Positions 11,492-63,363 of a stretch of 64,000 nucleotides of DNA are shown piece after piece; within the stretch, counting starts at the first letter, position 1; every line of letters starts with the position of its first letter. Both the position numbers and the translations under genes were made by a program. The notes beneath the pieces were generated by a model that was not told the origin of the DNA, did no database searches, and saw nothing but the letters and a program-made list of their open reading frames with translations. The stretch comes from Bacteroidetes bacterium HLUCCA01 (GTDB lineage Bacteria > Bacteroidota > Rhodothermia > Balneolales > HLUCCA01): contig LIHN01000018.1 in NCBI GenBank assembly GCA_001314545.1, positions 124,001 through 188,000 on the forward strand, in the 5' to 3' direction.

Positions 11492-11535
11492 GGAAAGTTT
11501 TAATTTAACGTTTGAAAACAAGCGCTAATAATACA

Positions 11536-11543
11536 CAAACTTA
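11536..11543 (-). promoter_or_regulatory. Candidate -7 element for uppP
   Basis: The minus strand carries TAAGTTTG, an exact TAnnTTTG element, about 45 bases before the uppP ATG. The nearest upstream TTG is only 16 bases away rather than 19-21, so the full promoter is less certain than those before nuoJ and rpsT. Confidence 0.4.
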
Positions 11544-11574
11544 GCACAAGATTCACTTTCAACCCCAGGTTAAC

Positions 11575-12576: not shown

Positions 12577-12604
12577 AGACGCCGGGGCCTATATTACGTA
12601 TGAT

Positions 12605-12630
12605 GGGCCGGTACCAACCGGTGCCGGCCT
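12605..12630. terminator. Strong stem-loop between convergent moxR and nadA
   Basis: GGCCGGTACC, loop AACC and GGTGCCGGCC form a 10-bp GC-rich stem (one G-T pair) in the 80-base gap between the 3' ends of moxR and nadA. There is no T tract on either side, so it may stabilise 3' ends or act with Rho rather than as a classical intrinsic terminator. Confidence 0.4.
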
Positions 12631-12656
12631 TCTCAGCGTTAATGATGCAGGAAAGC

Positions 12657-13700: not shown

Positions 13701-13713
13701 AGGCTCTCTGCAT

Positions 13714-13751
13714 AAAAAAAGGTGGGACAGCGCCATTGCCATCCCACCTTT
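13714..13751 (-). terminator. Rho-independent terminator of rpsA
   Basis: On the minus strand AAAGGTGGGA pairs with TCCCACCTTT across a loop of about 14 bases and is followed by a run of T residues. It separates rpsA from nadA; the nadA start codon is only 13 bases beyond the T run, so nadA must be expressed by read-through or from a promoter overlapping the hairpin. Confidence 0.85.
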
Positions 13752-13774
13752 AAACTTACCGAAAATCGCTGAGA

Positions 13775-15805: not shown

Positions 15806-15889
15806 GTATTGTAACCTGTTGTTGATTAGCCACTCAGAAATGGATGGTGGTCGCTTCTGAGGGATTAGAGTTATATGTTTATTAATGTT

Positions 15890-15954
15890 CGTGCCTGAGC
15901 ACGGGGTTCTGTTTCGGGTATGAGCCCGATAAAAGACTGTTTAATCAGTCTTTT
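15890..15954 (-). promoter_or_regulatory. Three consecutive hairpins in the cmk-rpsA intergenic leader
   Basis: In order of transcription these are AAAAGACTG / CAGTCTTTT (15954-15931, overlapping the cmk stop codon), TCGGG / CCCGA (15929-15914) and CGTGC / GCACG (15903-15890). They leave about 85 bases before the rpsA ATG. The arrangement could tune rpsA expression relative to cmk or serve S1 autoregulation; this role is inference. Confidence 0.5.
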
Positions 15955-47780: not shown

Positions 47781-48236
47781 ATGGGTCAACAACAACTTTT
47801 ACTGGTAATTCTGGTTACCATTATTGTTGGAATCGCTACGGTTGTAGCAATTAACACGTTCGGAAGTGCTGCAGAGTCCGCGAATCATGACGCTGTTCGG
47901 CAGGATGTTGCACAAATAGCCTCATCTGCTCAAGCTTATTATATCAAACCTGCTATGTTAGCTGGTGGAGACAGGGACTTCACTGACATTGATTTTAATA
48001 ACATCACATTCGCGGGTACGATTGATGCTGATGATCCACTAATAGCTTCTAATGAAAACGGAACTTATGTAATTAGTGATGGGGATGACGATGAGTTCAC
48101 AATAACTGCATATCCCTCAAGTAATGAGGATTATGCAGATAATCCTACAGGTGGCGACTCTATGGAGGCGACAATATTACCTAACTCAATAACATGGGTT
48201 CGAAGTAGTCCTGGTGAAGCTGCGGCTGGTTCTTGA
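47781..48236 (+). CDS. Major pilin-like subunit 1, no canonical prepilin leader
   Basis: The 151-residue protein begins MGQQQLLLVILVTIIVGIAT, so the hydrophobic N-terminal helix of a type IV pilin starts at residue 5 or 6 with no basic leader and no Glu at position +5. After the helix come DAVRQDVAQIASSAQAYYIK, a typical pilin alpha1-C pattern, a glycine spacer and an acidic beta-rich C-terminus. It is paralogous to the next gene. It has a good ribosome binding site, is AT-rich compared with the rest of the operon, and is followed by an intrinsic terminator. I infer a structural pilin. Confidence 0.75.
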   Translation: MGQQQLLLVILVTIIVGIATVVAINTFGSAAESANHDAVRQDVAQIASSAQAYYIKPAMLAGGDRDFTDIDFNNITFAGTIDADDPLIASNENGTYVISDGDDDEFTITAYPSSNEDYADNPTGGDSMEATILPNSITWVRSSPGEAAAGS

Positions 48237-48254
48237 TGAATTAAAACATATTAT

Positions 48255-48286
48255 GGGCTAATCTACTTATTAGGTTAGCCCTTTTT
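48255..48286 (+). terminator. Intrinsic terminator between the two pilin genes
   Basis: GGGCTAA and TTAGCCC form a 7-bp stem with a 13-base loop, followed by TTTTT at 48282-48286. It lies 18 bases after the pilin 1 stop and ends 4 bases before the pilin 2 ATG. Partial read-through would give abundant pilin 1 mRNA and lower levels of the downstream machinery. Confidence 0.75.
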
Positions 48287-48290
48287 GTTT

Positions 48291-48671
48291 ATGGGACAGC
48301 AACAGGTAATTCTACTCATTTTAGTGACCCTAATTGCAGGGATTGCCACAATAGTTGGGGTTAATACCATGCAAAAAAGTCATGAAGCTTCCAACATGGA
48401 TGCTATAAGACAGCAAGTATTGCTGTCTCAAAATCTAGCTGTAGCATACTATTCAAAATCAAGGATGCTTGGGGGTGGTGGATATTCATTTGATGGTTTG
48501 ACACTGGATGATATAAATCTGGAAAGTGAGTCTGAAGATGCAACCTACTCACTGATCGTTGAAGACGGAAATAGTCAAGAATTTGAAATACTTGTTACAA
48601 CAAGATTTGGTGACGATTATCGAGTAACTGTTACCAATGATGATATTGTTTGGGAATCAGTAGATGAATAA
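48291..48671 (+). CDS. Pilin-like subunit 2, paralogue of subunit 1
   Basis: The 126-residue protein begins MGQQQVILLILVTLIAGIAT and continues with VGVNTMQKSHEASNMDAIRQ and AYYSKSRMLGGGG, closely matching subunit 1 in its first 60 residues; the C-terminal halves diverge. It also lacks a leader peptide and Glu5. The ATG at 48291 is chosen over TTG at 48285. No ribosome binding site is possible because the T run of the terminator ends 4 bases upstream. The gene is clearly AT-rich. A minor or alternative pilin is likely. Confidence 0.72.
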   Translation: MGQQQVILLILVTLIAGIATIVGVNTMQKSHEASNMDAIRQQVLLSQNLAVAYYSKSRMLGGGGYSFDGLTLDDINLESESEDATYSLIVEDGNSQEFEILVTTRFGDDYRVTVTNDDIVWESVDE

Positions 48672-48706
48672 AATTCTTTATTTCAGCTACCAAATAAGAA
48701 AATAAT

Positions 48707-50029
48707 ATGCCCGTCTTTCGTCTTAAAGGAATCAGCCCCAATGGTAAGCTCATTACCAATGAGTTTGAGGCGGATACCCGCAAGATAGCCCAGGAACGGG
48801 TCAACCGATTCGTCAAGTCCAAGAATATTAAAATCCAGTCCCTTGACCAACGGGCCAACTACCTGTACAAAGTCGAAAAAGACGGCAAAGTCCTGTCCGG
48901 CGAGCAGGAAGCCTACAGCAAGGAAGAACTCGAACGCGCCCTGCTCAAGCTCGGCTACCGCATCAAATCCGTCCAGAAAGAGCTTATCAGTTTCAAGGGC
49001 GGCGTTCCCATAGACGAGGTCGTGAATTTCATCAACATCTCGGCCGACCTCCTCAAGCAAAAACTCACCTTCGACGAAATTCTGAATCTTCTCTACGAAG
49101 ACACCCAGAACAAGCGGATGAAGGAAATCATCAAAACCATCCAGAAAGACCTCAAAGACGGTAAGGAGGGTAACGAGGTCTATGGCAAACACGCCGACGT
49201 TTTCGGTAAATTCGCCAGCTATATGCTCAGCGTAGCCTCCACCTCCGGAAACATGGCCCTGGTATTCGAAAGCACCGCCAAGTTCATGGAGCGCGATGCC
49301 ACCTTCAAGAAAAACCTGCGCCGCTCCCTGCTCATGCCCGTTATCACCGTACTGGCCGTAGTCGGTGTAGTGCTGTTCTACGTAGGCTATATCTTCCCCT
49401 CCACTGCCGAGCTGTTCGTTGAAATGGGGGTCGACCTGCCTCCTATGACCGAATGGACCCTGAATTTCAGTTACTTCCTGCGCGACACCTGGTTGCTGCT
49501 GGTTGCCGCACACGTGATACCCATCGCCGCCTTCATCTCCTTCATACGTACCGAAAAGGGCAAACTGTTTCTCGACCGATTTATTATCATGGTCCCCGTC
49601 ATCGGCGACCTCCTGCATAAAACCAGCATCGAAATCTTTGCACGGGTCTTCTACACCCTGTACAGCGGCTCCGGACAAAACGTAGAGGTCATCAAAGTCG
49701 CCTCGGAGGCCTGCCGGAACACCTACATGGAGAAACAGATTAAGGAAAAAGCCGTGCGAGGCATGCTTCAGGACGGTAAAGGCCTGATGGAAGGCCTGGA
49801 AGCCTCCGGCGTCTTCACGAAAACCGCCCTGTCGCGATTCCGCCTGGGCGCAGAAACCGGCGACCTTAAAAACAACGCCCGACAACTGGCCGAGTACTAC
49901 GAAATTCAGACCACCTACAAAATGAATTCGGTCATTGATGTCATTAATCTGTTCATCAACATGTTTATCATGATTGCACTGGTGGCCATCACCATCGTGT
50001 CATCAGAAACAGCGGTAATTCAGCCTTAA
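48707..50029 (+). CDS. pilC: Type IV pilus inner-membrane platform protein PilC
   Basis: The 440-residue protein belongs to the PilC/GspF family that connects assembly ATPases to the pilin. It has the T2SSF domains with VVNFINISADLLKQKLTFDEIL and the second repeat around IEIFARVFYTLYSGSGQNVEV, and three hydrophobic segments (about 208-235, 260-285, 415-435). Unusually, the cytoplasmic N-terminus holds two tandem copies of the small module that normally occurs once (FRLKGISPNGKLITNEFEA and YLYKVEKDGKVLSGEQEA). Base composition switches sharply to GC-rich at its start. Confidence 0.9.
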   Translation: MPVFRLKGISPNGKLITNEFEADTRKIAQERVNRFVKSKNIKIQSLDQRANYLYKVEKDGKVLSGEQEAYSKEELERALLKLGYRIKSVQKELISFKGGVPIDEVVNFINISADLLKQKLTFDEILNLLYEDTQNKRMKEIIKTIQKDLKDGKEGNEVYGKHADVFGKFASYMLSVASTSGNMALVFESTAKFMERDATFKKNLRRSLLMPVITVLAVVGVVLFYVGYIFPSTAELFVEMGVDLPPMTEWTLNFSYFLRDTWLLLVAAHVIPIAAFISFIRTEKGKLFLDRFIIMVPVIGDLLHKTSIEIFARVFYTLYSGSGQNVEVIKVASEACRNTYMEKQIKEKAVRGMLQDGKGLMEGLEASGVFTKTALSRFRLGAETGDLKNNARQLAEYYEIQTTYKMNSVIDVINLFINMFIMIALVAITIVSSETAVIQP

Positions 50030-50038
50030 AGCTAATTT

Positions 50039-50060
50039 TTTGCAGGGTTTAACCTGCAAA
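50039..50060 (+). promoter_or_regulatory. Stem-loop between pilC and pilB
   Basis: TTTGCAGG and CCTGCAAA form an 8-bp perfect stem with loop GTTTAA in the 93-base gap. No T tract follows on the plus strand, so it is more likely an RNA processing or stability element than a terminator. Confidence 0.4.
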
Positions 50061-50122
50061 TAGATGTATATTGCACGATAACTACGCGTTTAGTGTCTAA
50101 CTGATTTCAGACTCCGGCAGCT

Positions 50123-51895
50123 ATGGCCCTTCAGATGAATTTAAAAAGGCGAAGCGGTGACCTCCTTATTGAAAAGAGCATCGTTACCCGTGAACAGCTC
50201 GCGCAGGCTCTGGCAACCCAGGAATCCGAGCCGGAGGCCATACGCCGCAGACTCGGCGCCATCCTGACAGATGACTTTGGCATCGACCGGCACACGGTCA
50301 TGAAACACATCGCCGACTTCTACGCCTTCCGGGACATCAGCAGTGTTTCGGATATCAAAAGCGAAGAACGCATCCATAGCATCAAACGCATCCTGGAGTC
50401 CTTGCCCAAGGAGTCTGTAGATGAACTCGTCCATCGCAAAACCGTCCCCTTTCGTGTTGAGCGCAACAACCTGATTCTGGCCTCCGCGGATCCGACCGAT
50501 CCCGTAATTATCTCGCTGGTTGACAAGCTGGGTTTCAAGAGCTACGAGATTACCTATTGTCGCCTGGAACTCGTAGAGGACATCCTGTCAAGGGTGTACG
50601 AACAGAAAAATGAATTCCTGGACCTCCTCGAAGAAATTGAGCTGGACGATTCGGCCATGGCTGAACAGGAAGTCAACGAGGCTGAGATTGATGCCGAAAT
50701 CAATCAGAGCATGCTCAACTCCCTGGTGGAGGGTATGCTCATTGAGGCCGTCCGGCAGGGCGTCAGTGATATTCACATCATCCCGGGCATCGGTAACACC
50801 ACCGACATCCATTTTCGTATTGACGGCAAACTCATGCTCTGGCACACCCAGACCGGGGTCAAGCCCGAAGCCCTTTCGGCCGTGGTCAAAGACAAGACCC
50901 GGAACGTAGACCGTTTCGAGCGGGACAGCTCCCAGGACGGGTTCATCCAGCGGAAGATTGACAACCACAACCTGCGCTTCCGGGTGTCGATTATGCCCAT
51001 TGTGGGGCAGGAATTTGAGCGAAAATTCGAAAGTATTGTTATCCGGATTCTGGATGACCGCAAGGTAATCACCGACCTGAATAAGCTCGGGCTTCAGAAA
51101 CAGGCCTTTAAAGATTTCAACAAGGCCATCCGCAAGCCGTCCGGCATCGTGATTATCACCGGTCCTACCGGCAGCGGGAAGTCGACCACCCTGGTTGCAG
51201 CGCTGTACTCTGTAATTGATCCATCGGTGAATGTACTGACGGTAGAGGAGCCCGTGGAGTATCTTATCCGCGGTGCGAGGCAGCTCAAGATCAGCGATAA
51301 CATGACCTTCGATATGGCCATCCGCGGAATCCTCCGTCATGACCCGGACATTGTGCTTGTGGGTGAGATCCGGGATCTGAAAACCGCTGAAATCGCCATC
51401 AAACTGGCCAATACCGGTCACCTTACCTTCTCCACCCTGCACACCAACGATGCTCCCAGTGCGGTAGCCCGGCTGTTCAAAATGGGAGTGGAACCGTTTT
51501 TGATTGCCAGCGCGGTGAACCTGGTTATGGCCCAGCGGCTGATCCGGCGACTCTGTCAGCACTGCAAAGCTCCGATCCGGGATATTGATCCGGAGCTGCC
51601 CCGATCGGTAGGATTCACCGATGCTGAGATTGCACATACTACCTTTTATGGAGCGGTAGGCTGCGATAAATGCAACAAAGGGTATAAAGGTCGGGTAGCG
51701 ATTCACGAGGCCCTGTTCTTCGACAAAAACATTAAGAGCATCATATTCGCCTCCGGTGACGACATCGACGAAGATCAGATTCGCGAGCAGGCCATTAAAA
51801 ACGGTATGCTCACAATGCGTGCCAGTGGCAGGGAGCGCATCAAAGAAGGCTCTACTACCATTGAGGAAATCATCGCCATAACCATCGAGGACTAA
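50123..51895 (+). CDS. pilB: Type IV pilus assembly ATPase PilB
   Basis: A 590-residue secretion ATPase that drives pilus extension. It contains an N-terminal GspE_N-like domain (KRRSGDLLIEKSIVTREQLA), Walker A GPTGSGKSTT near residue 346, the Asp box and Walker B HDPDIVLVGEIRDLKTAEIA near 405, the His box TGHLTFSTLHTNDAP, and the tetracysteine zinc motif CQHC ... CDKCNKGYKGR near 478-520 that marks PilB/GspE rather than PilT. The order pilC-pilB is reversed relative to many T4P operons. Confidence 0.94.
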   Translation: MALQMNLKRRSGDLLIEKSIVTREQLAQALATQESEPEAIRRRLGAILTDDFGIDRHTVMKHIADFYAFRDISSVSDIKSEERIHSIKRILESLPKESVDELVHRKTVPFRVERNNLILASADPTDPVIISLVDKLGFKSYEITYCRLELVEDILSRVYEQKNEFLDLLEEIELDDSAMAEQEVNEAEIDAEINQSMLNSLVEGMLIEAVRQGVSDIHIIPGIGNTTDIHFRIDGKLMLWHTQTGVKPEALSAVVKDKTRNVDRFERDSSQDGFIQRKIDNHNLRFRVSIMPIVGQEFERKFESIVIRILDDRKVITDLNKLGLQKQAFKDFNKAIRKPSGIVIITGPTGSGKSTTLVAALYSVIDPSVNVLTVEEPVEYLIRGARQLKISDNMTFDMAIRGILRHDPDIVLVGEIRDLKTAEIAIKLANTGHLTFSTLHTNDAPSAVARLFKMGVEPFLIASAVNLVMAQRLIRRLCQHCKAPIRDIDPELPRSVGFTDAEIAHTTFYGAVGCDKCNKGYKGRVAIHEALFFDKNIKSIIFASGDDIDEDQIREQAIKNGMLTMRASGRERIKEGSTTIEEIIAITIED

Positions 51896-51906
51896 AAGGA
51901 GACGGC

Positions 51907-52425
51907 ATGACCGACTACTCGGATATTCTCTTTATGATGGCAGCCATGGTCCTGTTTTCCATATTGGTGAACAACGCCAACCGGTCATTTGTACGCAATA
52001 CGGTGATGGATGTAGAAACGCAGATTGAGTACAATGCCATATCACTGGGGCAGTCGGTTATAGAGGAGGCCCGCAACCGTGCTTTTGACGAGGTGGCCGT
52101 TGGTGGTGGAAGCGAATTGGGTAACCCGGGTCTATTAACCCCGGCTCAGATACCATCGGCTTTCACGCCGCCGGTTGATCTGGGTCCTGAAACCGGTGAG
52201 TCTTACCCCGATTTCAATGATTTTGACGATTTTAACGGTCTTGCGATTACCCGCAGCAACGGGTTTGGTGACTTTGACATTGCTGTTCAGGTGTTTTTTG
52301 TAGATCCGGCCAATTCTACTGTGAACGCCGGAACCCGAACCACTATGAAACGCATGGAGGTTACCATCAGCCACGAGTCGATGAGTAATACGGTAACGCT
52401 GAGCTATTTACGAAGCTACTTTTAG
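51907..52425 (+). CDS. Minor pilin-like protein A
   Basis: The 172-residue protein starts MTDYSDILFMMAAMVLFSIL, a single N-terminal hydrophobic helix continuing into an amphipathic helix, then a beta-rich domain with aspartate/phenylalanine repeats (FNDFDDFNGLAI). This is the shape of a minor pilin or pseudopilin. There is no prepilin leader and no G before the helix. It starts 11 bases after pilB. A role in priming or capping the fibre is inferred from shape and position. Confidence 0.6.
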   Translation: MTDYSDILFMMAAMVLFSILVNNANRSFVRNTVMDVETQIEYNAISLGQSVIEEARNRAFDEVAVGGGSELGNPGLLTPAQIPSAFTPPVDLGPETGESYPDFNDFDDFNGLAITRSNGFGDFDIAVQVFFVDPANSTVNAGTRTTMKRMEVTISHESMSNTVTLSYLRSYF

Positions 52426-52435
52426 AGGAAACAAC

Positions 52436-52942
52436 ATGGAACATGGTATCACACTCCAGCAACGCGTCAACGAGGGACTTGGGCAGGTTCTGCGCAATGT
52501 CCCCTTGCTGTTTCGCAATTTTGCTCCGGAAGACCTGCGCGATTTCCTGCGGCTGGGTCACGCTCAGCTGTATAAACCCGATGAAGTTATCATCGACGAG
52601 GCCAGTACGGAACTGGATACGGCTTTTCTGATTGTGCAGGGCAATGCTTCGGTGTGGAAGGATGACCTGCATCTGGCTACCATCGGAGTAGGTGATATTC
52701 TTGGAGAGACCTTCCTGTTCAATAAAATGGGTCGGACTGCCTCCGTGAGTGCCACCGATGAAGTGATTGCCCTGAAATTCCGCCGGTCTGAGGTTCTGGA
52801 TTTCTTCCGTAAGAAACCGGAGCGACTTTTCAAGTTGTTTACCATCAACATTGTGGAAATTCAGCAACGACGAATCTCCAGTATGAACGCAAAAATGATC
52901 CAGTTGCAGAAGCGACTGATGAACCGGGAGGGTGTGGAATAG
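52436..52942 (+). CDS. Cyclic nucleotide-binding domain protein
   Basis: The 168-residue protein is a single cNMP-binding domain: LFRNFAPEDLRDFLRLGHAQ, an eight-stranded jelly roll, and the phosphate-binding cassette GDILGETFLFNKMGRTASVS, which keeps the Gly-Glu and Arg-Thr-Ala residues used to bind cAMP or cGMP. A C-terminal helix (IQQRRISSMNAKMIQLQKRL) follows. There is no DNA-binding domain, so it is not a Crp-like regulator by itself. Embedded between minor pilin genes, it may make pilus activity respond to a cyclic nucleotide. Confidence 0.85.
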   Translation: MEHGITLQQRVNEGLGQVLRNVPLLFRNFAPEDLRDFLRLGHAQLYKPDEVIIDEASTELDTAFLIVQGNASVWKDDLHLATIGVGDILGETFLFNKMGRTASVSATDEVIALKFRRSEVLDFFRKKPERLFKLFTINIVEIQQRRISSMNAKMIQLQKRLMNREGVE

Positions 52943-52945
52943 TCT

Positions 52946-53485
52946 GTGAATCCGAGCCTGCTCATAGGATTTGTAATTGGCGGTATGCTGCTGCTCTCAC
53001 TGATGGTGATGAATAACCGCATATCCCAGAACAGCGCCCAGGTAACCTTGTCTGAAATGACCAGGCAATCGATGAGTGCAGTCTCGGATATCGTGGGGCA
53101 CGACCTGCGCAGGCTGGGCTCAGGAGCCGGTGCCAATCCCATTGCCGTGGCAACGCGTAACCGTCTGGTATTCAACGGTGCCCAGGAAGATAATGCGGTG
53201 GTTCAGGTGGAGTGGTTTTTTGACGATACTTTAGTACCGGCAGCTGCTGATAATCCCCGGGAACGGGTTTTGCTGCGCGTAGCTGACGGTGACACCACTC
53301 GTATGGAAATGGGTGTGACCTCGTTTAATTTCATCTACTTTGATGCCGCCGGCGATACCACAGCGGTGCTCAATGACATCCGCCGGATTCGTGTCCAGAT
53401 GATGGTGGAGAGTAAATCACCAATTGGTGATGAATTTTCACAGGCGTACTGGGAGGCAGACCATTCTCCCCGTGCGCTGCAATAA
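52946..53485 (+). CDS. Minor pilin-like protein B (PilW-like)
   Basis: The 179-residue protein starts from GTG at 52946, 3 bases after the cNMP gene. The first residues, NPSLLIGFVIGGMLLLSLM, form a transmembrane helix at the very N-terminus. Then come SQNSAQVTLSEMTRQSMSAV and DIVGHDLRRLGSG, a pattern like PilW/GspJ pseudopilins, and a beta-rich domain. Again there is no leader peptide. The call as a minor pilin rests on topology and locus. Confidence 0.6.
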   Translation: MNPSLLIGFVIGGMLLLSLMVMNNRISQNSAQVTLSEMTRQSMSAVSDIVGHDLRRLGSGAGANPIAVATRNRLVFNGAQEDNAVVQVEWFFDDTLVPAAADNPRERVLLRVADGDTTRMEMGVTSFNFIYFDAAGDTTAVLNDIRRIRVQMMVESKSPIGDEFSQAYWEADHSPRALQ

Positions 53486-53500
53486 TCCCACGGAGGCGTT

Positions 53501-54553
53501 ATGGGCAGAGCTTTACTTTTTTTGGTTGCCGGCAGTTTTGTAATCTTCGGTATGCTGCAACTGGGCGTGAGCGGACGACAATCCAGCATGAATGAAATCA
53601 ATGTGGGATATGTGCTGGACGCCCAGGCCCGTAATATTGCCAACAGTGCCCTGGAGTCGGCCCTGAACCGGCTTATGACGGATGATACCTGGCGGGCTGG
53701 TCCGCAGCAACCCTTCCGTTATCAGTATGGTGATGAGTACGCGGATGTTCAGGTGGTTGACGCCAGCATGCAGGGTGTGACGCTCCCGCCCAACGTTATT
53801 GAAATCCGCAGCAAAGGTGTAAGCGGCGACCGCCAGGCCAGCGCCGTAGCGCGCATCGAGGTGGAAGACAGTCTGCCCACCATTGAAAGTACGATGGGTA
53901 TTTTCACCAACAACCTGACCGTGAATATCTCCGGAAGCTCATTTCTGATCGATGGTAACGACAATGCGGCCGTACCCGGCGGAGCCCTCCCCGGCATTGC
54001 CGTGAACAGCCAGGCCGCCTACGACGAGTTCATGAAACTCAACAGCAGTCAGCTCGACAAGATTCAAGGACCCGGTGGTGGAACCAGTATTGTGCTGAAC
54101 ACCGAGATGGATGCGGATGCATTGGAAACCTTTATTGCGCAGGCCGTAGCCAATGCTGATGCTGTTTACGACGATCATACCGCATCCGGCGCCAACTCAC
54201 TGGGCTCTGTTGAAGACCCGCAAATCATTGTAGTCAACGGTACCCTGGATATCAGAAACGCAACCGGAGCCGGCATTATTATCGTTCGGGAAGGCGGCAT
54301 ACTGGACGCCCGGGGAAATCTGGATAACTACCAGGGCCTTATCATCATCCAGGGGACTGCCGGCATGAGCCGGGGCAATATCCACATCCGCGGGGCCATG
54401 CTGTTCGGGGGTGCCAATCCCGCCATTGAAATCGACATCGACTTCCGGGGCAACGTGAACATCCTCTACGACAGTTCGGTACTCAACCAGTTGTCAGCAA
54501 GTATGCCGGAAACCGCAGGGAAAAAACAGCGGGTTGTAGGTATTTATGACTAA
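53501..54553 (+). CDS. Large PilX-like minor pilin with beta-helix-like C-terminus
   Basis: The 350-residue protein begins MGRALLFLVAGSFVIFGMLQ, an N-terminal hydrophobic helix, followed by ARNIANSALESALNRLM, which resembles the ANSALE.AL segment of PilX-type minor pilins. The C-terminal half (IIVVNGTLDIRNATGAGIII, REGGILDARGNLDN, GNIHIRGAM) reads as short right-handed beta-helix turns. It has no leader peptide. A tip adhesin-like or surface-exposed minor subunit is plausible, but inferred. Confidence 0.62.
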   Translation: MGRALLFLVAGSFVIFGMLQLGVSGRQSSMNEINVGYVLDAQARNIANSALESALNRLMTDDTWRAGPQQPFRYQYGDEYADVQVVDASMQGVTLPPNVIEIRSKGVSGDRQASAVARIEVEDSLPTIESTMGIFTNNLTVNISGSSFLIDGNDNAAVPGGALPGIAVNSQAAYDEFMKLNSSQLDKIQGPGGGTSIVLNTEMDADALETFIAQAVANADAVYDDHTASGANSLGSVEDPQIIVVNGTLDIRNATGAGIIIVREGGILDARGNLDNYQGLIIIQGTAGMSRGNIHIRGAMLFGGANPAIEIDIDFRGNVNILYDSSVLNQLSASMPETAGKKQRVVGIYD

Positions 54554-54658
54554 TTGCATGCTGGTTAATCTTTTAAATGTGCGTAAAATACCTTACTCTC
54601 TGTATAGTGTCCGGATACTGTCAACCCCTGAACTAAACGCAGTGCAACACGGCCGTTA

Positions 54659-55888
54659 ATGTCAGCATACCTAGAAAAGCTACACTCTGAAGTCTTCGAA
54701 CCGGTACGAAATGAAGTACCTGACCTCATTGTCGGCAAAGAACGGTATCTGCTCATCAGCGAAGTGCTTGACCGGCTGCCCGAACGCCAGGCCCAGGCCA
54801 TGCGGGATTACCTCACCGCAGTACTGGAGCACATGGAATATACCAGCGCGTCCGATGTGGATCTGGGAGGTATAGGCGGGCAGAATCATATCTGGTTCCG
54901 AACCTACGGAGCCAAAAAACCCTGGCTTGACGGTCCGGACCTGACCCCTTTCGAAGCCGATATCCTCTGCGTTGCCAATCTGACCACGGAGCAGCTGGAT
55001 ATTCTGCTGGCTGAAAAAAATCTGGACTTCTCTTTCACCGTTGACCTCAAAAATATTGGTCAACGCCGGTTCAGGGCCAATATGTACTTTGATCTGGACC
55101 ACCTTGCACTGAACATGCGCCGGATTAATTCGGAAGTGCGACCGTTCAAAAGTCTGAATCTGCATCCCGAAGTGGCCAAAGCACTGAGTCTGAAGTTTTA
55201 TAAATATGGACTCACGCTCGTTACCGGAATAACCGGAAGCGGAAAATCTTCCACCCTGGACACCATCGTTGACGCCAATAACCGATCGGTAGACGGCCAC
55301 ATCGTTATCATCTCCTCCCCTATTGAAATGGTACACGTACCACGCCGGTGCATTATCCGTCACCGCGAGGTCGGTCGAGACACCCTCTCCTTCAAACAAG
55401 GCGCTATTGAGGCCCTCCGGCAGGATCCGGATATCATCGTGCTGGGTGAGCTTCGTGATGCGGAAACCATCTTGACAGCCCTGGAAATCACGGATTCCGG
55501 GCATAAAACCTTTTCCACTCTGCATACGGCCTCTGCCACGGAAAGCATCGACCGTATCATCGGCGAGGTGCCCCCGGATGAGCAGAATCGCGTAAGGTTG
55601 CGTCTGGCCGATGTACTCACCTGTGTCATATCCCAGAAGCTGGTTCCCACCAAAGACGGAAAGCTGACTCTGGCCAAGGAAGTACTGCTGAACACCTCTT
55701 CTGTGAAGGCGGCCATCCGTAATAACAATACCGGCGAGATTTATCAGATGCTCATGGAGGGCGGCAATATGGGCATGATGACCATGGAACAGGATCTGAA
55801 ACGGCTCTATGACGAAGGTTTGATATCCCTGGAAGAAGCCTATAACCAGGCCAACAACAAGAAACGTCTCAAAGATATTATTTCATAA
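54659..55888 (+). CDS. pilT: Type IV pilus retraction ATPase PilT
   Basis: The 409-residue ATPase has Walker A GITGSGKSSTLD near residue 189, the Asp/Walker B region RQDPDIIVLGELRDAETI and the His box SGHKTFSTLHTASATESIDR. It lacks the zinc tetracysteine of PilB, and QKLVPTKDGKLTLAKEVL is the PilT-like C-terminal region. PilT depolymerises pili and powers twitching. The N-terminal region is longer than usual. The 105-base gap upstream, the largest in the machinery part of the operon, could hold an internal promoter. Confidence 0.9.
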   Translation: MSAYLEKLHSEVFEPVRNEVPDLIVGKERYLLISEVLDRLPERQAQAMRDYLTAVLEHMEYTSASDVDLGGIGGQNHIWFRTYGAKKPWLDGPDLTPFEADILCVANLTTEQLDILLAEKNLDFSFTVDLKNIGQRRFRANMYFDLDHLALNMRRINSEVRPFKSLNLHPEVAKALSLKFYKYGLTLVTGITGSGKSSTLDTIVDANNRSVDGHIVIISSPIEMVHVPRRCIIRHREVGRDTLSFKQGAIEALRQDPDIIVLGELRDAETILTALEITDSGHKTFSTLHTASATESIDRIIGEVPPDEQNRVRLRLADVLTCVISQKLVPTKDGKLTLAKEVLLNTSSVKAAIRNNNTGEIYQMLMEGGNMGMMTMEQDLKRLYDEGLISLEEAYNQANNKKRLKDIIS

Positions 55889-55899
55889 ATCGATACAGC

Positions 55900-57612
55900 G
55901 TGTTCGACCTAAAAAAGCGAGAAATTACCGGCATCACCGTAGACGGCGAGTTCCTCAGACTGGCTACGCTGGAGGTGTCGCAAGACCTGGTCAAAGTTGT
56001 CAAACTGCAACGGGCGCGGCTACTCAGTCTTCCTGATGATCTGAAAGACGACCGGGATCGCGATGATCTGGACATTCCCGGAAATGATGAAGACGACGAG
56101 ACGGCTATCTTCGGGCTGTCGGATACGGAACCGGCCGGTCCGGGCGCACTGGAAGAGTCTCTGGATGAAGACTGGGATATGACCCAGGAGAACATTCCCG
56201 GCCTGGATGACAAGTCGAACGCTACGATCATGGCCGATCTGCTTCGCGAACACCTGCTGCAGAGCATTACCACCAGTGTAGCCATTCCCCTCAACCAGAC
56301 CCACCTGCAGCTCTTCAGCGATATTGATGTAAAAAAGCTCAGCCGGAAAAAAATAACGGCTACCCTGCATGAGCGTATGGAAACCATGTATGACCACCCC
56401 ATTGCGCCCGATCAGCTGGTGTGGCATCGGGTTAACGGCAACGGAACGCTGCTGGTAGGCTCTATTGAGCGGGATGTGTTTCCGGTGACGGTACTGGATG
56501 CGGCGCTTCCATTGTTTGACGGGAAGATCATGGTGAAAACGGTGCTGAGTGAAGAACTCATTCTGGCCGGACTGATTCGCACCAATTATACCCTGCTTGA
56601 CCACGAGTACACCTGCATTGTACATGTAGAAGAGAACAATACTACGCTTATTTTCATGAAGGGCAAGGAGTTTCATGCGGTTTTGCCCGTGATTAAAGAA
56701 GGCAGCAAAAATCAGCGGGTGGGCAGGACCATATTCTCCAAGATACTCTTTGAGGTAGACCGCGGTAAAATTCCAACACTGGATCGCATTGTAGTCACCG
56801 GGGATACCCTGGGCGGCAACCTGTTGCTTTTCCTGGCCGATCAGTTTATCGATGTGGAGGTCACTCCGTTTGAATATGACGGAGACAAATTTGATGTGGA
56901 TGCCACCCTGGACGATGATTACCGCGACTACCTCAAAGCCATTGGTATTGCCTGGGCAGGCAGCGACCATGCCAAAGCGGATTTCATACATCTCTCCTTC
57001 CTTCCAAAATATATTCAGGTTCGTCAGCAGGTATTCAAACTGGACTGGCACGGGTATGTACTTCTGGCCATGATTGCGCTTATGCCGGTGCTGGGTAACC
57101 ATTACTATCAGCTGAAAAAAGCGGACTTTGAAAGCAATCGGCAGACCATCCAGCTGCTTGACCGGCAGATTTCAGAAACCAGGGCCGTGACCACGGTAGT
57201 TGAGAATCTTTCGGCCGAGTACGCCCTGATGGAAGCCAAGGCCGGCGTACTGGATGAGCTGAGTGCCAATACCCTGAAATGGTCGCGCACCCTGCAGCTG
57301 ATTAACGCCGCTACTGAAGGCATCAACTCATTGTGGTTTACCAATTTTCAGGGTTCTCCTGAGAATCTGATCATACAAGGCACATCGCTGTACCGCGACC
57401 GGATTCCGCAGATCAGCAACCGGTTTCACCGGGCTACCCTGCAGCAGGTAACCGAGCGGGAAGAACGCGGTATCATCGTCTATGACTTTGTGCTTCTGGT
57501 AAACGAAGTGGTTGATGATCCCGACTTTTTCGATCCGGAAAAAGCAATCCTTCCCGAGCAGGTACTCGAGTTAACTGAAACAACCGGTACACGCGGTACC
57601 ATCCGGCAATAA
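55900..57612 (+). CDS. PilM-PilN fusion, alignment subcomplex
   Basis: The 570-residue protein, GTG start, seems to join two T4P proteins. Residues 1-360 are PilM-like (actin-like fold start EITGITVDGEFLRLATLEVS, later EYTCIVHVEENNTTLIFMKG and DRIVVTGDTLGGNLLLFLAD) with an acidic linker at 50-90. Residues about 358-570 are PilN-like: FIHLSFLPKYIQVRQ resembles the NLLP motif by which PilN binds PilM, followed by one transmembrane helix (about 386-405), a coiled coil and a ferredoxin-like domain. The fusion would fix the stoichiometry of a normally non-covalent pair. Confidence 0.75.
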   Translation: MFDLKKREITGITVDGEFLRLATLEVSQDLVKVVKLQRARLLSLPDDLKDDRDRDDLDIPGNDEDDETAIFGLSDTEPAGPGALEESLDEDWDMTQENIPGLDDKSNATIMADLLREHLLQSITTSVAIPLNQTHLQLFSDIDVKKLSRKKITATLHERMETMYDHPIAPDQLVWHRVNGNGTLLVGSIERDVFPVTVLDAALPLFDGKIMVKTVLSEELILAGLIRTNYTLLDHEYTCIVHVEENNTTLIFMKGKEFHAVLPVIKEGSKNQRVGRTIFSKILFEVDRGKIPTLDRIVVTGDTLGGNLLLFLADQFIDVEVTPFEYDGDKFDVDATLDDDYRDYLKAIGIAWAGSDHAKADFIHLSFLPKYIQVRQQVFKLDWHGYVLLAMIALMPVLGNHYYQLKKADFESNRQTIQLLDRQISETRAVTTVVENLSAEYALMEAKAGVLDELSANTLKWSRTLQLINAATEGINSLWFTNFQGSPENLIIQGTSLYRDRIPQISNRFHRATLQQVTEREERGIIVYDFVLLVNEVVDDPDFFDPEKAILPEQVLELTETTGTRGTIRQ

Positions 57613-57625
57613 CATCCTCCCGATC

Positions 57626-58498
57626 ATGTCATACGCTTTACGAAATACACTGATTTTGCTGGCTACCCTGTTGCTTCTGGGAGCAGGCGGATGGATATTT
57701 TTGCGGTTCAGTTTCGCCCAGGAAATTCTGGAGCAGGAGTCGTTGATTTCACAGAAGGAGAACGAGGTTTCACGACTGAGTGCGACGGCCGATAATTTCA
57801 CGCAGGTTCAGGAAATGACGAACACTATCCGGTTTGAACTGGAAAATCACAACAAGGAACTGCTGCCTTCGGCCAATGTAGCGGCCGTGTACGGATTTCT
57901 GGACCGTGTTAACCGGGGAAGCGCCTACACAACCATGAATTTCGCTTTTCGTGATTCGGTGCGCAACAACGACCATGGCTTGCTGCAGGTACGCCTCGAC
58001 GGAGACGGAACCTATCGGGCCCTGTTCAACTTTCTGACCATTCTGGAACAGAGTAAGCCCATCATTCGGGTGACCGATATCCGACTGGCCCCGGAGGGTT
58101 CTACCCGTGAATCGCTTAATCGTGTTCGTTATGAAATGAATGTAGATTTCTACTACGCACGGGGTGGAACACAAACCGACCCCGAAATGCTGGTTCGCAC
58201 ATCGGTACCGCGCCGACTGTACAATCCGTTTTACGCGCTGGTTCACGAAGTGCCGCCCAACGAAGATAACCTGGTTAACGTGGAACAAAGTCGTCTGGTC
58301 GGGCTTGTCCGCAGTGGTGCCTATATCATCGATCAGGCCAATGAGCTGCGTTTCATCCCGTTAGACGGTCCGGTTTACCTGGGTTCCATGATACGGGTAA
58401 ATATGAACGAACAAACGGCTGAATTCCGGCTGAATCGCGGTGGCATACGCGACCTTGTAGTGTTACGAATCAACGAATCGATTAATGAATCGGAATAA
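57626..58498 (+). CDS. PilO-PilP fusion, alignment subcomplex
   Basis: The 290-residue protein has one transmembrane helix (residues about 7-27), a coiled coil and a ferredoxin-like domain typical of PilO (to about residue 190). The C-terminal 100 residues contain YNPFYALVHE and SRLVGLVRSGAYIIDQANEL with GPVYLGSMIRVN, a beta-domain of the PilP/GspC homology type that contacts the secretin. PilP is usually a separate lipoprotein. It lies 13 bases after the PilM-PilN gene and 12 before the secretin. Confidence 0.68.
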   Translation: MSYALRNTLILLATLLLLGAGGWIFLRFSFAQEILEQESLISQKENEVSRLSATADNFTQVQEMTNTIRFELENHNKELLPSANVAAVYGFLDRVNRGSAYTTMNFAFRDSVRNNDHGLLQVRLDGDGTYRALFNFLTILEQSKPIIRVTDIRLAPEGSTRESLNRVRYEMNVDFYYARGGTQTDPEMLVRTSVPRRLYNPFYALVHEVPPNEDNLVNVEQSRLVGLVRSGAYIIDQANELRFIPLDGPVYLGSMIRVNMNEQTAEFRLNRGGIRDLVVLRINESINESE

Positions 58499-58510
58499 CC
58501 CCCCAGTTTT

Positions 58511-59755
58511 ATGATGAACGTTCTACCTACTTATTTCAACCGCGCTGTGCTGCAACTGCTGAGTATTTCGATGCTGCTTGCGCTGCCGGTCCAGTCTATT
58601 GCCCAGGATCGACTCCCCTTCCGGGAATTTACCAATCCGGACGAGCTGGTGACCCTGGGGCAGGAAACCTCCCTTTCACAGGCTTTTATCATACTGGGCG
58701 GGTTCAGTCGCAGTTTTGAGGACAAAATTCTCATCGACCGGTCTGCCACACCCGGATCCATTGGCATCAACATCCCCAGTATGCACTGGCGTCAGGCCCT
58801 GGATGCCATCGCCCGGGCCAACAACCTGCTGATTCAGGAACAACGTGAGTTTATTGAGGTTCTCCCGAACCGCATGCCAGAAGACGAAAACGGTGCGCAG
58901 TCTGAAACGCAGCCAACACCGGGACCGGCTGCCGGAGGTCCGGGGCCGGAGATCAATGCAACGCTGGATACACGTGAAATCGAAATATCGGCCATTTTCT
59001 TCGAGGGTAACCGGCGGATTCTTCGTGAAATCGGAATCAACTGGACCGCGATACAAGACGGGGTAGTCCGCGTATCCAATCTGGCAGCCGAAAGTGTATC
59101 CCTGGAGGCTCTTCAGGCTGAAATTGAGCCCCAGCGTCTTTCGGGCGACTGGGAAGTGGGGGCACTGCTAAACACGCTGGAACTGCTCAACGTAGGTGAG
59201 ATTCTTTCCAGCCCGCGAATTAAAGTAATGGATGGCCAGGAAGGAGATATTCAGGTAGGGCAGGATTTCTCCATCAAACAGCGTGACTTTGCCGGCAACA
59301 TTACCGATGCATTTTTCAGCACAGGTACCATCCTGACGGCTACACCCTACATTATGACGGACCGCGACACCTCCTTCATCTATCTGGACCTGCGCGTGGA
59401 GCGCAGTACGGCCAATCCGGATCCGGTCAGTACGATCATCAATAAGCAGGAAGCCGTGACCCAGGTGCTCTTGTACAGCGGAGAATCCACGGTTATAGCC
59501 GGACTGTACGAAACCGATGAACTGACCATCCGTCGGGGTATACCGTTCCTGAAGGATCTGCCCCCCTGGTTTTTCGGCTTGCGTTACATCTTCGGATACA
59601 ATTCCTACGAAACGGCCCAAAATGAGCTCATAATTGTGGTCAGAGCCGAGATTATCCCATCGTTACGCGAACGTTTCAACCTGGAACAGACTCCAACCAT
59701 TGATGTGCTTCGGGAGGGTCGCCAACGGTTAATTGAGGGTGCACAAAGACCCTGA
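58511..59755 (+). CDS. pilQ: Type IV pilus secretin PilQ, compact
   Basis: The 414-residue protein has a signal peptide (about residues 1-31, ending near SIAQ), an N0/STN-like domain (about 45-120, SIGINIPSMHWRQALDAIAR), a proline/glycine linker and the secretin domain with VGEILSSPRIKVMDGQEGDI, GTILTATPYIM, STVIAGLYETDELTIRRGIP and NELIIVVRAEII. It forms the outer-membrane pore. It is much shorter than usual PilQ, with no AMIN domains for peptidoglycan binding, so anchoring may rely on the PilP-like partner. Confidence 0.9.
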   Translation: MMNVLPTYFNRAVLQLLSISMLLALPVQSIAQDRLPFREFTNPDELVTLGQETSLSQAFIILGGFSRSFEDKILIDRSATPGSIGINIPSMHWRQALDAIARANNLLIQEQREFIEVLPNRMPEDENGAQSETQPTPGPAAGGPGPEINATLDTREIEISAIFFEGNRRILREIGINWTAIQDGVVRVSNLAAESVSLEALQAEIEPQRLSGDWEVGALLNTLELLNVGEILSSPRIKVMDGQEGDIQVGQDFSIKQRDFAGNITDAFFSTGTILTATPYIMTDRDTSFIYLDLRVERSTANPDPVSTIINKQEAVTQVLLYSGESTVIAGLYETDELTIRRGIPFLKDLPPWFFGLRYIFGYNSYETAQNELIIVVRAEIIPSLRERFNLEQTPTIDVLREGRQRLIEGAQRP

Positions 59756-60124: not shown

Positions 60125-60586
60125 CTACATAATCCTTCTCGAGCGCAGGTATCTTCTTGACCAATAGCGCTCATCCAGGCGGGAAACCATCGGCCCTCTG
60201 GAGGTGGAGGCGTGCAAAAAGCGGTCGCCATCCAGCATAATTCCTACATGATAGGTGTTACGTCCGGTCCGGAAAAAGACCATATCACCGGCCCGGAGGC
60301 GGGATTTCCTCACTCTGGTACCGGTACGCATTTGTTCCCGCGTAGTCCGAGGCAGGTTGATGCCAAACTGCTCGCGCATAACAATCATCACAAAGGCTGA
60401 GCAGTCCACACCGCTGCGACTCGTCCCCCCGAGGACATAAGGCGTTCCCTGCCAGCGATCGTGCATCTCCATGAGGCGGGACTCCACAGAGCGGGCAGAT
60501 TTTCGGGACGAGGCACAGGAGCCAATCAGCACCAGCAACAGCATTACCGCAACAGTGCGTAACAGCGTCTGCCGGGCCGCAATCAT
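60125..60586 (-). CDS. NlpC/P60 family lipoprotein peptidase
   Basis: The 153-residue protein has a lipoprotein signal with lipobox LIGSC (Cys near residue 24) and a complete NlpC/P60 domain: GTPYVLGGTSRSGVDCSAFV with the catalytic Cys, GINLPRTTREQ, GDMVFFRTG and YHVGIMLDGDRFLHAS with the catalytic His. It resembles MepS/Spr endopeptidases that cleave peptidoglycan cross-links. Its start is 3 bases after the metF stop, so the two are cotranscribed despite unrelated roles. Confidence 0.9.
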   Translation of the reverse strand: MIAARQTLLRTVAVMLLLVLIGSCASSRKSARSVESRLMEMHDRWQGTPYVLGGTSRSGVDCSAFVMIVMREQFGINLPRTTREQMRTGTRVRKSRLRAGDMVFFRTGRNTYHVGIMLDGDRFLHASTSRGPMVSRLDERYWSRRYLRSRRIM

Positions 60587-60589
60587 TGC

Positions 60590-61555
60590 TTACACCACGT
60601 TGCTTTGACCCAGCGGCAACGACTCAATCACATTGATAGCCGGCGAGGGATCACTCATAATGTAGAAATGCAGACCGGGAACCCCATGATCAAGCAATTC
60701 CAGGCATTGCTTACGTGCCCACTCCTGCCCGATACTGCTTGTACTTTCCGGATCAGCCGCGACCGCATCGCTCAGGTCGCAGGGAATGGAAAGATGAAAT
60801 GCCTTCGGCAGGGTTACCAGGTGGTTCGCCCGGGTGAGTACCTTCAGACCGGGAATGATCGGGATGGTGATACCCTCGGCCCGGCATTTATCCACAAATT
60901 CGAAGAAGACCTGGTTGTCAAAAAACATCTGCGTAACGATGTAGTCGGCCCCGGCTGCCACCTTATCCTTGAGTCTTTTAATATCCCAGACCAGATTCGG
61001 CGCTTCGTTATGCTTCTCGGGATAGCCTCCCACACCCACACAAAAATCGGTGTGACTGGCCTCCATGAGATCTTCCAGATAGATGCCCTTGTTCATATCC
61101 TTTACCTGGCGAACCAGATCGCTGGCATAGGTATTGACCGCCCGGTCCTTATGATGGGGCTTGGGAGCGCCGTGGTCGTCACCGCGAACCGCCAGTACAT
61201 TATCGATACCCAGATAATGCAGCTCGATGAGGGCATCCTCGGTTTCTTCCTTGGTAAATCCTTTACAGATAAGATGCGGCACGGGATCTACGTTGTAGCG
61301 GTGTTTGATGGCGGCACACAGTCCGATGGTGCCCGGGCGTTTGCGCTTGACCCGGCGTTTCATGGTACCGTTGCCCAGATCGATGTACTCGGCTTCGGCA
61401 GCATGGGAGGTAATATCGATGAAGGGCGGATTGAATTTCTTGACCCGGTCGAGTGCATCAAATACGTTCTGGATGCTGGCGCCCCGGCGTGGTGGAATAA
61501 TTTCGAAAGAAATGAGCGGCTCGGTCGCGCGATCGTAATGTTCGGTAACTTTCAT
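60590..61555 (-). CDS. metF: 5,10-methylenetetrahydrofolate reductase
   Basis: The 321-residue flavoenzyme makes 5-methyltetrahydrofolate, the methyl donor for methionine synthesis. Motifs include ISFEIIPPRRG (catalytic Glu), FIDITSHAAEAEYI, YLGIDNVLAVRGDDHG, and GADYIVTQMFFDNQVFFEFV, with PIIPGLKVLTRANHLVTLPK. The ATG at 61555 (MKVTEHYDRA) is preferred; an in-frame TTG at 61627 would add 24 unconserved residues. No SAM riboswitch was seen upstream, although one occurs 2 kb away before another gene. Confidence 0.94.
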   Translation of the reverse strand: MKVTEHYDRATEPLISFEIIPPRRGASIQNVFDALDRVKKFNPPFIDITSHAAEAEYIDLGNGTMKRRVKRKRPGTIGLCAAIKHRYNVDPVPHLICKGFTKEETEDALIELHYLGIDNVLAVRGDDHGAPKPHHKDRAVNTYASDLVRQVKDMNKGIYLEDLMEASHTDFCVGVGGYPEKHNEAPNLVWDIKRLKDKVAAGADYIVTQMFFDNQVFFEFVDKCRAEGITIPIIPGLKVLTRANHLVTLPKAFHLSIPCDLSDAVAADPESTSSIGQEWARKQCLELLDHGVPGLHFYIMSDPSPAINVIESLPLGQSNVV

Positions 61556-61701
61556 CGGCGGAAATGTGTTGTAGGGTAGATGGAAACTCAGACGGGTTAT
61601 GGGTATACTTGGCTTCCCGGCAGGCAAACGCCGGTGAAACCAACAAATGACCTTGCCAAAGCATCCCTAACTGAATAATCTACTAAAAATTTCGGGAAAT
61701 T

Positions 61702-62424
61702 ATGGAACTGTTAGTCAATATTGACCATATCGCGACCTTACGGAATGCACGCGGCGAGGGTGTGCCGGATCCGGTAGAGGCGGCCCGGATATGCGAAGAC
61801 AACGGAGCGGCCGGCATCGTGTTTCACCTGCGTGAAGACCGAAGACACATCCGTGATCATGACGTATATGCACTTCGGGAACACATCCGCGGTACCGTTG
61901 ATTTTGAAATGGCCGCCACCGATGAAATGCTGGGAATCTGCGAGAAAATTCGCCCGCATATTTGTACCCTGGTCCCGGAGAGCCGCCAGGAGCTCACTAC
62001 CGAGGGCGGACTGAACATGCGGATGATTTTTGAGGATTACCGTTCCCGCGTGATACCGCGACTGCTGGATACCGGTACTATAATCAGTCTTTTTGTAGAC
62101 CCCAATCCCGACGACATACAACGTTGCAGGGAGCTGGGCGTCCAGGCCATCGAGCTGCATACCGGAATGTATGCCAACGCCCGGAAAGCTTCGGTGGTGG
62201 AACATGAGCTTGAACGTCTGCGCGAAGCCGCTGAACTGGCGCACAGCCTTGGACTCATCGTGAATGCGGGCCACGGGCTTAACTTTACCAATACCACACC
62301 CTTCATCCGGGCGGTACCGCATCTGGCCGACATCAGTATCGGTCACGCGCTGGTGACCCATGCCGTGTTTCACGGACTGGCAACTTCGGTGCGCACCATG
62401 GCCGATATCATCAGCAAAGGTTAA
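61702..62424 (+). CDS. pdxJ: Pyridoxine 5'-phosphate synthase
   Basis: The 240-residue TIM-barrel enzyme condenses 1-deoxyxylulose 5-phosphate with aminoacetone phosphate to form pyridoxine phosphate. Characteristic segments are LLVNIDHIATLRNARG, DNGAAGIVFHLREDRRHI, FEMAATDEML, TLVPESRQELTTEGGL, AIELHTGMYANA and VNAGHGLNFTNT. The length is typical. It is 12 bases upstream of era. Confidence 0.96.
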   Translation: MELLVNIDHIATLRNARGEGVPDPVEAARICEDNGAAGIVFHLREDRRHIRDHDVYALREHIRGTVDFEMAATDEMLGICEKIRPHICTLVPESRQELTTEGGLNMRMIFEDYRSRVIPRLLDTGTIISLFVDPNPDDIQRCRELGVQAIELHTGMYANARKASVVEHELERLREAAELAHSLGLIVNAGHGLNFTNTTPFIRAVPHLADISIGHALVTHAVFHGLATSVRTMADIISKG

Positions 62425-62436
62425 CGGGTAAGGCTC

Positions 62437-63363
62437 ATGGATTTCATTGAACCCCCAAACGACGAGCTCAACGATTCGCCTGAGTTTTCGCCCGGGCACC
62501 GGGCGGGTTTCGTAGCGATTATTGGTCGACCCAACGCGGGAAAGTCCACCCTTTTGAACGCCATCCTGGAGTTCAAGCTGGCCATCGCCACGCACAAGGC
62601 ACAGACTACCCGCCATCAGATACTGGGTATCCTCAGCGAAGCGGCCCACCAGATGGTCTTTCTGGATACACCGGGAATCATCGAACCCGAATACAAGCTT
62701 CAGGAAGCCATGATGCAGGCGGTGGCGCGGTCGACCAAGGACGCTGATGTGCTGTTGCATCTGGTAGATGCTACCCGTCCGGCGGATGAAGAACGGGTCT
62801 GGAAATACATGCATGCTTCAGGAAAACCTGCTGTGCTGGTGATCAATAAAGTGGATGCGGCGGGCGATGAGGTCGTTGATGCGATTAAGGCGGCATGCAC
62901 CGCAGCATTTGCCTACCGTGAAATTGCAGCGATTTCTGCTGCCCGTGGTACCGGACTTGATGAGCTCAAAATGGCTCTGGGCCGACAATTACCGCTAAGT
63001 CCGCCGCTGTACCCGCCCGATCAGCTCAGCGAACACCCGGTCCGGTTCTTTGTATCGGAGCTCATACGGGAGCAAATATTCCTGCAGTACGCCCAGGAGA
63101 TACCTTACTCATGCACGGTCACCATTTCTTCATTCAAAGAGGAAGAAAAAATGGATCACATCCACGCCGAAATTATCGTGAACCGGGACTCACAGAAGGG
63201 AATTCTGATTGGTAAAGGCGGGATGAAACTAAAAAAATTGGGCACAAAGGCCCGCGAGCAAATCGAGCAGCTGACCGGCAGGAAGGCCAATCTTCAGCTA
63301 TTCGTAAAAGTCAGGGAAAAGTGGCGCGATAAAGACAGCTACCTGCGCGGATACGGGTACTGA
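62437..63363 (+). CDS. era: GTPase Era
   Basis: The 308-residue GTPase assists 16S rRNA processing and 30S assembly. It has P-loop GRPNAGKSTLLNAIL, the switch KAQTTRHQILGI, G3 DTPGIIEPE, G4 NKVD, G5 SAARGTG, and a C-terminal KH domain with IIVNRDSQKGILIGKGGMKLKKLGTKAREQIEQL. The N-terminus is about 20 residues longer than E. coli Era. It follows pdxJ directly. Confidence 0.96.
   Translation: MDFIEPPNDELNDSPEFSPGHRAGFVAIIGRPNAGKSTLLNAILEFKLAIATHKAQTTRHQILGILSEAAHQMVFLDTPGIIEPEYKLQEAMMQAVARSTKDADVLLHLVDATRPADEERVWKYMHASGKPAVLVINKVDAAGDEVVDAIKAACTAAFAYREIAAISAARGTGLDELKMALGRQLPLSPPLYPPDQLSEHPVRFFVSELIREQIFLQYAQEIPYSCTVTISSFKEEEKMDHIHAEIIVNRDSQKGILIGKGGMKLKKLGTKAREQIEQLTGRKANLQLFVKVREKWRDKDSYLRGYGY

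Follow-up and report, generated by a model that had tools for sequence, protein, structure and literature searches.

Every type IV filament is held to require prior processing of its subunits by a dedicated peptidase (PMC10191384), with the Nanoarchaeota forming the single group in which no prepilin peptidase has been detected (PMC4471445). An operon at positions 47781-59755 of a 64,000-nucleotide stretch of DNA from Bacteroidetes bacterium HLUCCA01 (contig LIHN01000018.1, positions 124,001 to 188,000 of the forward strand; hereafter the window) appears to encode a machine that would work like a type IVa pilus, yet lacks two of the features that define such machines, namely the class III leader of the pilins and the prepilin peptidase. 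The operon consists of 12 genes arranged head-to-tail, all on the plus strand, in a genome of 3.37 Mb that is 98% complete; among named contigs, the closest carry the label Balneolales or Balneolaceae, or in some cases merely Bacteroidetes. The evidence from sequence is strong, and with a probability of about 0.78 we read the operon as encoding a type IVa-pilus-like machine, predicted to be retractable, that has leaderless pilins and does not depend on a prepilin peptidase.

The type IVa pilus of Pseudomonas, Neisseria, Myxococcus and Geobacter has in common with this operon PilB, PilC, PilT, a PilQ-like secretin, a PilO-like part and the pilin fold, as well as a GspI/J/K-like trio of minor subunits (here m1, m2 and m3, with m2 assigned by fold and m1 and m3 by order). 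The genes by which the type IVa class is recognized, PilB with PilC, PilT and a secretin, are all present, the best NCBIfam models for PilB, PilT and the secretin being type_IV_pilB, pilT_fam and IV_pilus_PilQ, each matched below its curated cut-off (pilT_fam just under). The operon differs in that the leader, the peptidase and, in the major pilins, Glu5 are missing, and in that the PilM/N-like and PilO-like genes have apparently fused and diverged. MSHA pilins carry leaders. An MSHA-type locus likewise has no prepilin peptidase of its own, but its host genomes hold the enzyme from another system (PMC6668835), whereas here there is none. Archaeal class III pilins resemble the present ones in that Gln stands close to where the helix begins and Glu5 is often missing, but their leader is cut by EppA/FlaK/PibD-type enzymes. 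The idea of an archaeal class III signal, raised in the sequence-only reading that preceded this analysis, survives as a resemblance only, since no archaeal-type A24 peptidase (PF06847) was found in the window genome, and an archaeal-type pilus was rejected on the same ground. A type II secretion system was also rejected, with PilT present and no peptidase for leader-bearing pseudopilins.

The departure from known type IV pilus systems that the same reading proposed is supported. Among the open-access papers searched, none described a natural leaderless pilin (subscription papers were outside the scope). A cyanobacterial pilD suppressor (PMC8546353) is not a precedent, its mutations relieving prepilin toxicity in a pilD mutant. 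For Melioribacter roseus, pilBCTQ were reported but neither pilA nor pilD, a set judged probably incomplete (PMC3534657). A leaderless GQQQ pilin was found in a contig labelled M. roseus (L112), with no PF01478 in its genome, and the pilus genes of this organism very probably belong to the same operon lineage. Pilins are usually found in genomes via the leader, and if leaderless pili exist, leader-based searches would have overlooked them in entire lineages, seemingly including M. roseus.

Start positions of the pilin-like subunits

The two major pilin-like subunits (p1 and p2) begin MGQQQ and the three minor ones begin at the helix, as the sequence-only reading had it, and these starts were confirmed. 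The p1 ATG at 47781 is directly preceded by a Shine-Dalgarno-like CGGAG; the 28 in-frame codons upstream are open, none of them ATG, GTG or TTG, and a same-genus relative has a stop four codons upstream. For p2 (ATG at 48291) there is a stop four codons upstream, and a TTG two codons upstream would add two residues only; stops upstream of m1, m2 and m3 lie at 14, 1 and 5 codons. Comparison of orthologous operons from related genomes and named contigs showed that minor orthologues likewise begin at the helix, those of m1 sharing the start position and those of m3 beginning MGR or MGK.

A census of start sites was made over 144 distinct pilin homologues, found by a profile stripped of its first 16 columns, so that the count at residue 1 does not select for the motif. 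Residue 1 is ATG, GTG or TTG in 142 of the 144. The start is MGQQQ in 127, while six GQQQ proteins are started by GTG or TTG and one by ATA; nine have variant N-termini (MANKE three times, and MAQQQ, MGNQQ, MGSQQ, MGNRE, MGIQQ and MSQKT), and a single pilin has a broken or unusual frame. An in-frame stop lies five or fewer codons upstream in 98, an upstream ATG, GTG or TTG falls within 40 codons in six, and the search for conserved upstream starts that would give a canonical leader found none. The motif is encoded by 20 different 15-mers in 94 genes, which indicates that the protein is conserved and not the DNA alone; as a DNA pattern, MGQQQ was matched in 31 of 41 related genomes, and a reversed control in 1. 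The identical start is present in Balneolales, in other Rhodothermia, in Ignavibacteria-type and other phylum-mates, and in KSB1; there the pilin profile has matches in 36 of 82 genomes, three of them weak. As read from these sequences, the leaderless starts are real.

That the starts have been misread, with a true leader hidden upstream by a frameshift or by initiation at an unusual codon, is barely credible. The open codons upstream of p1 would speak for it, ending as they do in the basic-looking KKRRSI, but RRSI is read from the Shine-Dalgarno-like region CGGAGATCAATC, those codons offer no start, and the stop in the same-genus relative stands in the way. A frameshifted leader was rejected as well, the other frames giving an open upstream start in just 14 and 12 of 94 genes.

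When the profile is aligned with mature pilins of solved structure, its position 9 falls on mature residue 6, so that the canonical +1 would be residue 4; the place of Glu5, a residue that is frequent, though not absolute, among known pilins, is taken in the major pilin by Leu8. At most Met-Gly-Gln could precede +1 on this alignment, compared with leaders of 6-26 residues in known prepilins (PMC4471445), and a class III signal peptide, meaning a hydrophilic leader, some 6-26 residues long, with Gly or Ala at its end, is absent from these pilins.

Prepilin peptidase in the window genome and its relatives

Neither a Peptidase_A24 (PF01478) nor a canonical N-methyl prepilin (PF07963) was found in the window genome, and PF01478 is absent from 39 of the 41 genomes in a sample of relatives. 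Of the 146 genomes in the class sample, 105 carry the pilin, 11 of these with PF01478 and 94 without; in the phylum sample the pilin occurs in 102 of 297, with PF01478 in 12 and none in 90. The two tables, joined by hand, give 146 pilin-bearing Bacteroidota genomes, 131 lacking PF01478 and 15 having it. Among 24 genomes reached via named contigs, PF01478 is missing from 20 and present in four (Balneolaceae G165 and G169, Ignavibacteriae G172, and KSB1 G170 with three copies). The search proved sensitive, with PF01478 detected in 12 reference genomes out of 14 and in many members of family f27, which belongs to the same phylum. A genome-wide search for a PilD homologue, which the sequence-only reading had called for, thus returned none in the window genome, nor in 131 of the 146.

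Where the peptidase does occur, its surroundings are informative. In five genomes with inspected A24 loci its neighbour is a canonical prepilin (...G|FSLTELL), at a separate locus. Two of these, G025 (L062; G169 has the identical sequence) and G107 (L208), have peptidase and prepilin together with an ATPase, a secretin and PilM/N/O-like genes of the locus's own; in G165 (L212) and G172 (L211, L214) the enzyme is likewise beside a canonical prepilin, and in G031 the peptidase and an N-methyl motif are some 0.5 kb apart. G025 and G031 hold the peptidase, yet their MGQQQ pilins are leaderless. Within the 41-genome sample PF07963 was found in both peptidase-bearing relatives, against one of the 39 others (G032). 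In these five genomes, all outside KSB1, enzyme and leader travel together, and the MGQQQ operon has neither. At the KSB1 peptidase loci (L209, L213, L215) no canonical prepilin was seen in the short flanks scanned.

The accessory locus of some Balneolaceae (L062:4020-10766 and L208:2758-9528), which combines an ATPase and a secretin with a canonical prepilin and a Peptidase_A24, has the look of a system acquired separately. Like the window's operon it has an ATPase, a secretin and PilM/N/O-like genes of its own, but its prepilin bears a leader (DESG|FSLTELL) and the Peptidase_A24 is adjacent. The exception in G032, a fragmented Balneolales draft, consists of three N-methyl prepilin-like genes (G032:C255:5252-6347) with no PF01478 match, and is probably due to incomplete assembly.

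Drafts make up most of the surveyed genomes, a minority of the pilin-bearing ones do hold an A24 enzyme, and MSHA loci manage without an enzyme of their own (PMC6668835), all of which would suit a peptidase that is shared in the MSHA manner, hidden in an assembly gap or below the reach of the profile. This explanation is nonetheless very unlikely, as the absence persists in near-complete and one-contig genomes (e.g., G014, one contig), and a borrowed enzyme would need a leader to cut, of which there is none.

The sequence-only reading had left a choice between insertion without PilD and a minimal cut, MG|QQQ, with Gln at +1. Such a cut would call for a divergent or unrelated membrane peptidase that removes Met-Gly only. 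All 143 judgeable pilins have Gly, Ala or Ser as residue 2 (Gly in 138, Ala in 4); prepilin peptidases prefer Gly or Ala at -1, and Gln at +1 occurs in some archaeal pilins, both of which speak for the cut. Its enzyme would have to be other than A24 or PF06847 in the window genome, and A24 is absent from most relatives; the orthologous operons have no extra conserved gene that might provide one; known prepilin leaders are 6-26 residues long (PMC4471445); and m1 and m2 have no Gly at residue 2. We consider such a cut unlikely, though it is the strongest of the alternatives. Insertion without PilD fits better and is preferred because no candidate peptidase co-occurs.

Pilin identity and the proposed mechanism

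The AlphaFold model of p1, computed from 47 sequences, has a pLDDT of 91.2 and consists of a single helix over residues 2-55 followed by beta strands, and that of m2 has a pLDDT of 86 with a helix over residues 3-55; both models thus give a predicted type IV pilin fold of a long N-terminal helix and a beta sheet. In Foldseek searches the top two matches of p1 among 350,542 chains were the minor pilins PilV and PilE, at weak E values of 0.06 and 0.17, and the three best of m2 were Pseudomonas type II secretion minor pseudopilin structures (E 1e-3 to 6e-3). The pilin-family profile matched a Geobacter pilin among PDB sequences (9egp, E 0.0014), and more weakly 2m7g and PilE1. Profiles of m1, m2 and m3 gave nothing significant against PDB sequences, and m1 gave no significant family match either. 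The p1 and p2 pilins are unrecognised by Pfam and NCBIfam; MacB_PCD matches were rejected as below cut-off. Also rejected were a third MGQQQ match in the genome (G000:C16:152196), which is an internal stretch of a FlgD-like flagellar gene, and the pattern matches L181 and L184, which are short chance ORFs.

The pilin identity of the GQQQ proteins thus comes from a predicted fold, and they might instead be membrane-anchored accessory proteins of a machine whose real pilins lie elsewhere and have normal leaders. With no N-methyl prepilin in the genome, with the pilin fold and the Geobacter pilin match, and with GQQQ genes heading the operon in most lineages, this alternative is highly improbable.

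For leaderless pilins the following course is proposed. The class III leader would have been lost or never acquired, and the N-terminal helix would serve as an uncleaved signal-anchor, the pilin inserting with its N-terminus in the cytoplasm. Deformylase would shape the N-terminus, together with methionine aminopeptidase where residue 2 is Gly, Ala or Ser, which would leave GQQQ in the major pilins; methionine aminopeptidase needs a small residue 2 such as these. PilB and PilC would assemble the subunits on the GspI/J/K-like minor complex, the secretin would export the fibre and PilT would retract it.

Several points weigh against the leaderless, peptidase-free machine. The filament and its mature N-terminus are predictions from genes and models. 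Gly or Ala at residue 2 also suits the -1 position of a prepilin peptidase, and a two-residue cut by another enzyme is possible. Residue 2 is often Asn, Lys or Arg in m1 and m2, so that Met removal cannot be general and those subunits would keep Met. Most of the survey was of drafts, and the A24 peptidases of 15 surveyed genomes could act on GQQQ pilins. The census profile descends from MGQQQ-selected sequences, so that pilins with very different N-termini would have been missed. The identities of m1, m3 and the PilM/N-like protein depend on order and motifs.

It is likely that the operons of Balneolales, other Rhodothermia, Ignavibacteria-type bacteria and KSB1 form a separate branch of type IV pili whose fibres are assembled from subunits without any dedicated proteolytic maturation, and that the peptidase is not required throughout the superfamily. 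If so, the branch would reveal what in the N-terminus is truly needed for extraction and packing, and the question of why the leader exists would become directly testable.

Machine genes, operon variants and flanking genes

The recognition of PilB, PilC, PilT and a secretin in the sequence-only reading is borne out by the Pfam matches in Table 1, and PilT also matches a solved PilT structure (PDB 5fl3, E 3e-63). Its PilM/N/O/P-like assignments fared unevenly, with weak PilO/GspM matches for one gene, and for the other no family match in Pfam or NCBIfam. The PilM/PilN name of the latter would follow from its position and its layout of cytoplasmic part, membrane helix and periplasmic part. By reading of the sequence, the C-terminal part of the PilO-like protein resembles a PilP domain, and both PilM/N and PilO/P may be fused in this operon. 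The roles suggested for m1 and m3 come from gene order and motifs.

Table 1. Genes of the pilus operon in the window, in order of position
Feature	Coordinates	Strand	Evidence
Major pilin p1, leaderless (MGQQQLLLVILVTIIVGIATVVAINTF...)	47781..48236	+	AF2 fold, profile match, start support
Second major-pilin-like subunit p2, leaderless (MGQQQVILLILVTLIAGIATIVGV...)	48291..48671	+	Pilin profile E 8e-37 (p2 is among the rows used to build this profile)
PilC / GspF-like platform protein	48707..50029	+	PF00482 E 3e-27
PilB-like assembly ATPase	50123..51895	+	PF00437 E 6e-101; best NCBIfam TIGR02538 PilB 4e-128
Minor subunit m1, leaderless (M[STN]DYSD...)	51907..52425	+	GspI/PilV-like by gene order, local motif only
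Cyclic-nucleotide-binding-domain protein	52436..52942	+	PF00027 E 8e-10
Minor subunit m2, leaderless, GspJ/PilW-like fold	52946..53485	+	AF2 and Foldseek
Minor subunit m3, leaderless (MGRALLF...)	53501..54553	+	GspK/PilX-like by order, ARNxAxSxLE motif only
PilT-like retraction ATPase, AIRN...GE motif	54659..55888	+	PF00437 3e-31; TIGR01420 pilT_fam 3.5e-91
PilM/PilN-like fusion (putative)	55900..57612	+	Position, layout, conservation in orthologous operons
PilO/GspM-like protein	57626..58498	+	NF040576 GspM 5e-6, PF04350 E 0.026 (both weak)
Secretin (PilQ-like)	58511..59755	+	PF00263 E 1e-26; best NCBIfam PilQ 2e-24

The cyclic-nucleotide-binding gene sits among the minor-subunit genes and is conserved in Balneolales operons; it was not detected in Ignavibacteria-type operons. 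Its product might link pilus function with nucleotide signalling.

Operon arrangement varies among the relatives. In the Gracilimonas-type genomes (L046, L047, L082, L182, L183, L187) the MGQQQ pilin genes stand elsewhere, apart from pilC/pilB, and no minor trio was detected in these operons. A KSB1 operon (L101, about 10750-15950) has the minor-subunit triplet twice in tandem, both copies leaderless. The PilB of L072, labelled Chitinophagaceae bacterium T5-Br10_B2g13, is 67% identical to that of the window, as in Balneolaceae, and the Chitinophagaceae label is probably wrong. The downstream flank of the operon (60125-63363) is ordinary, with genes for an NlpC/P60 lipoprotein and MTHFR, both on the minus strand, PdxJ and an Era-like GTPase.

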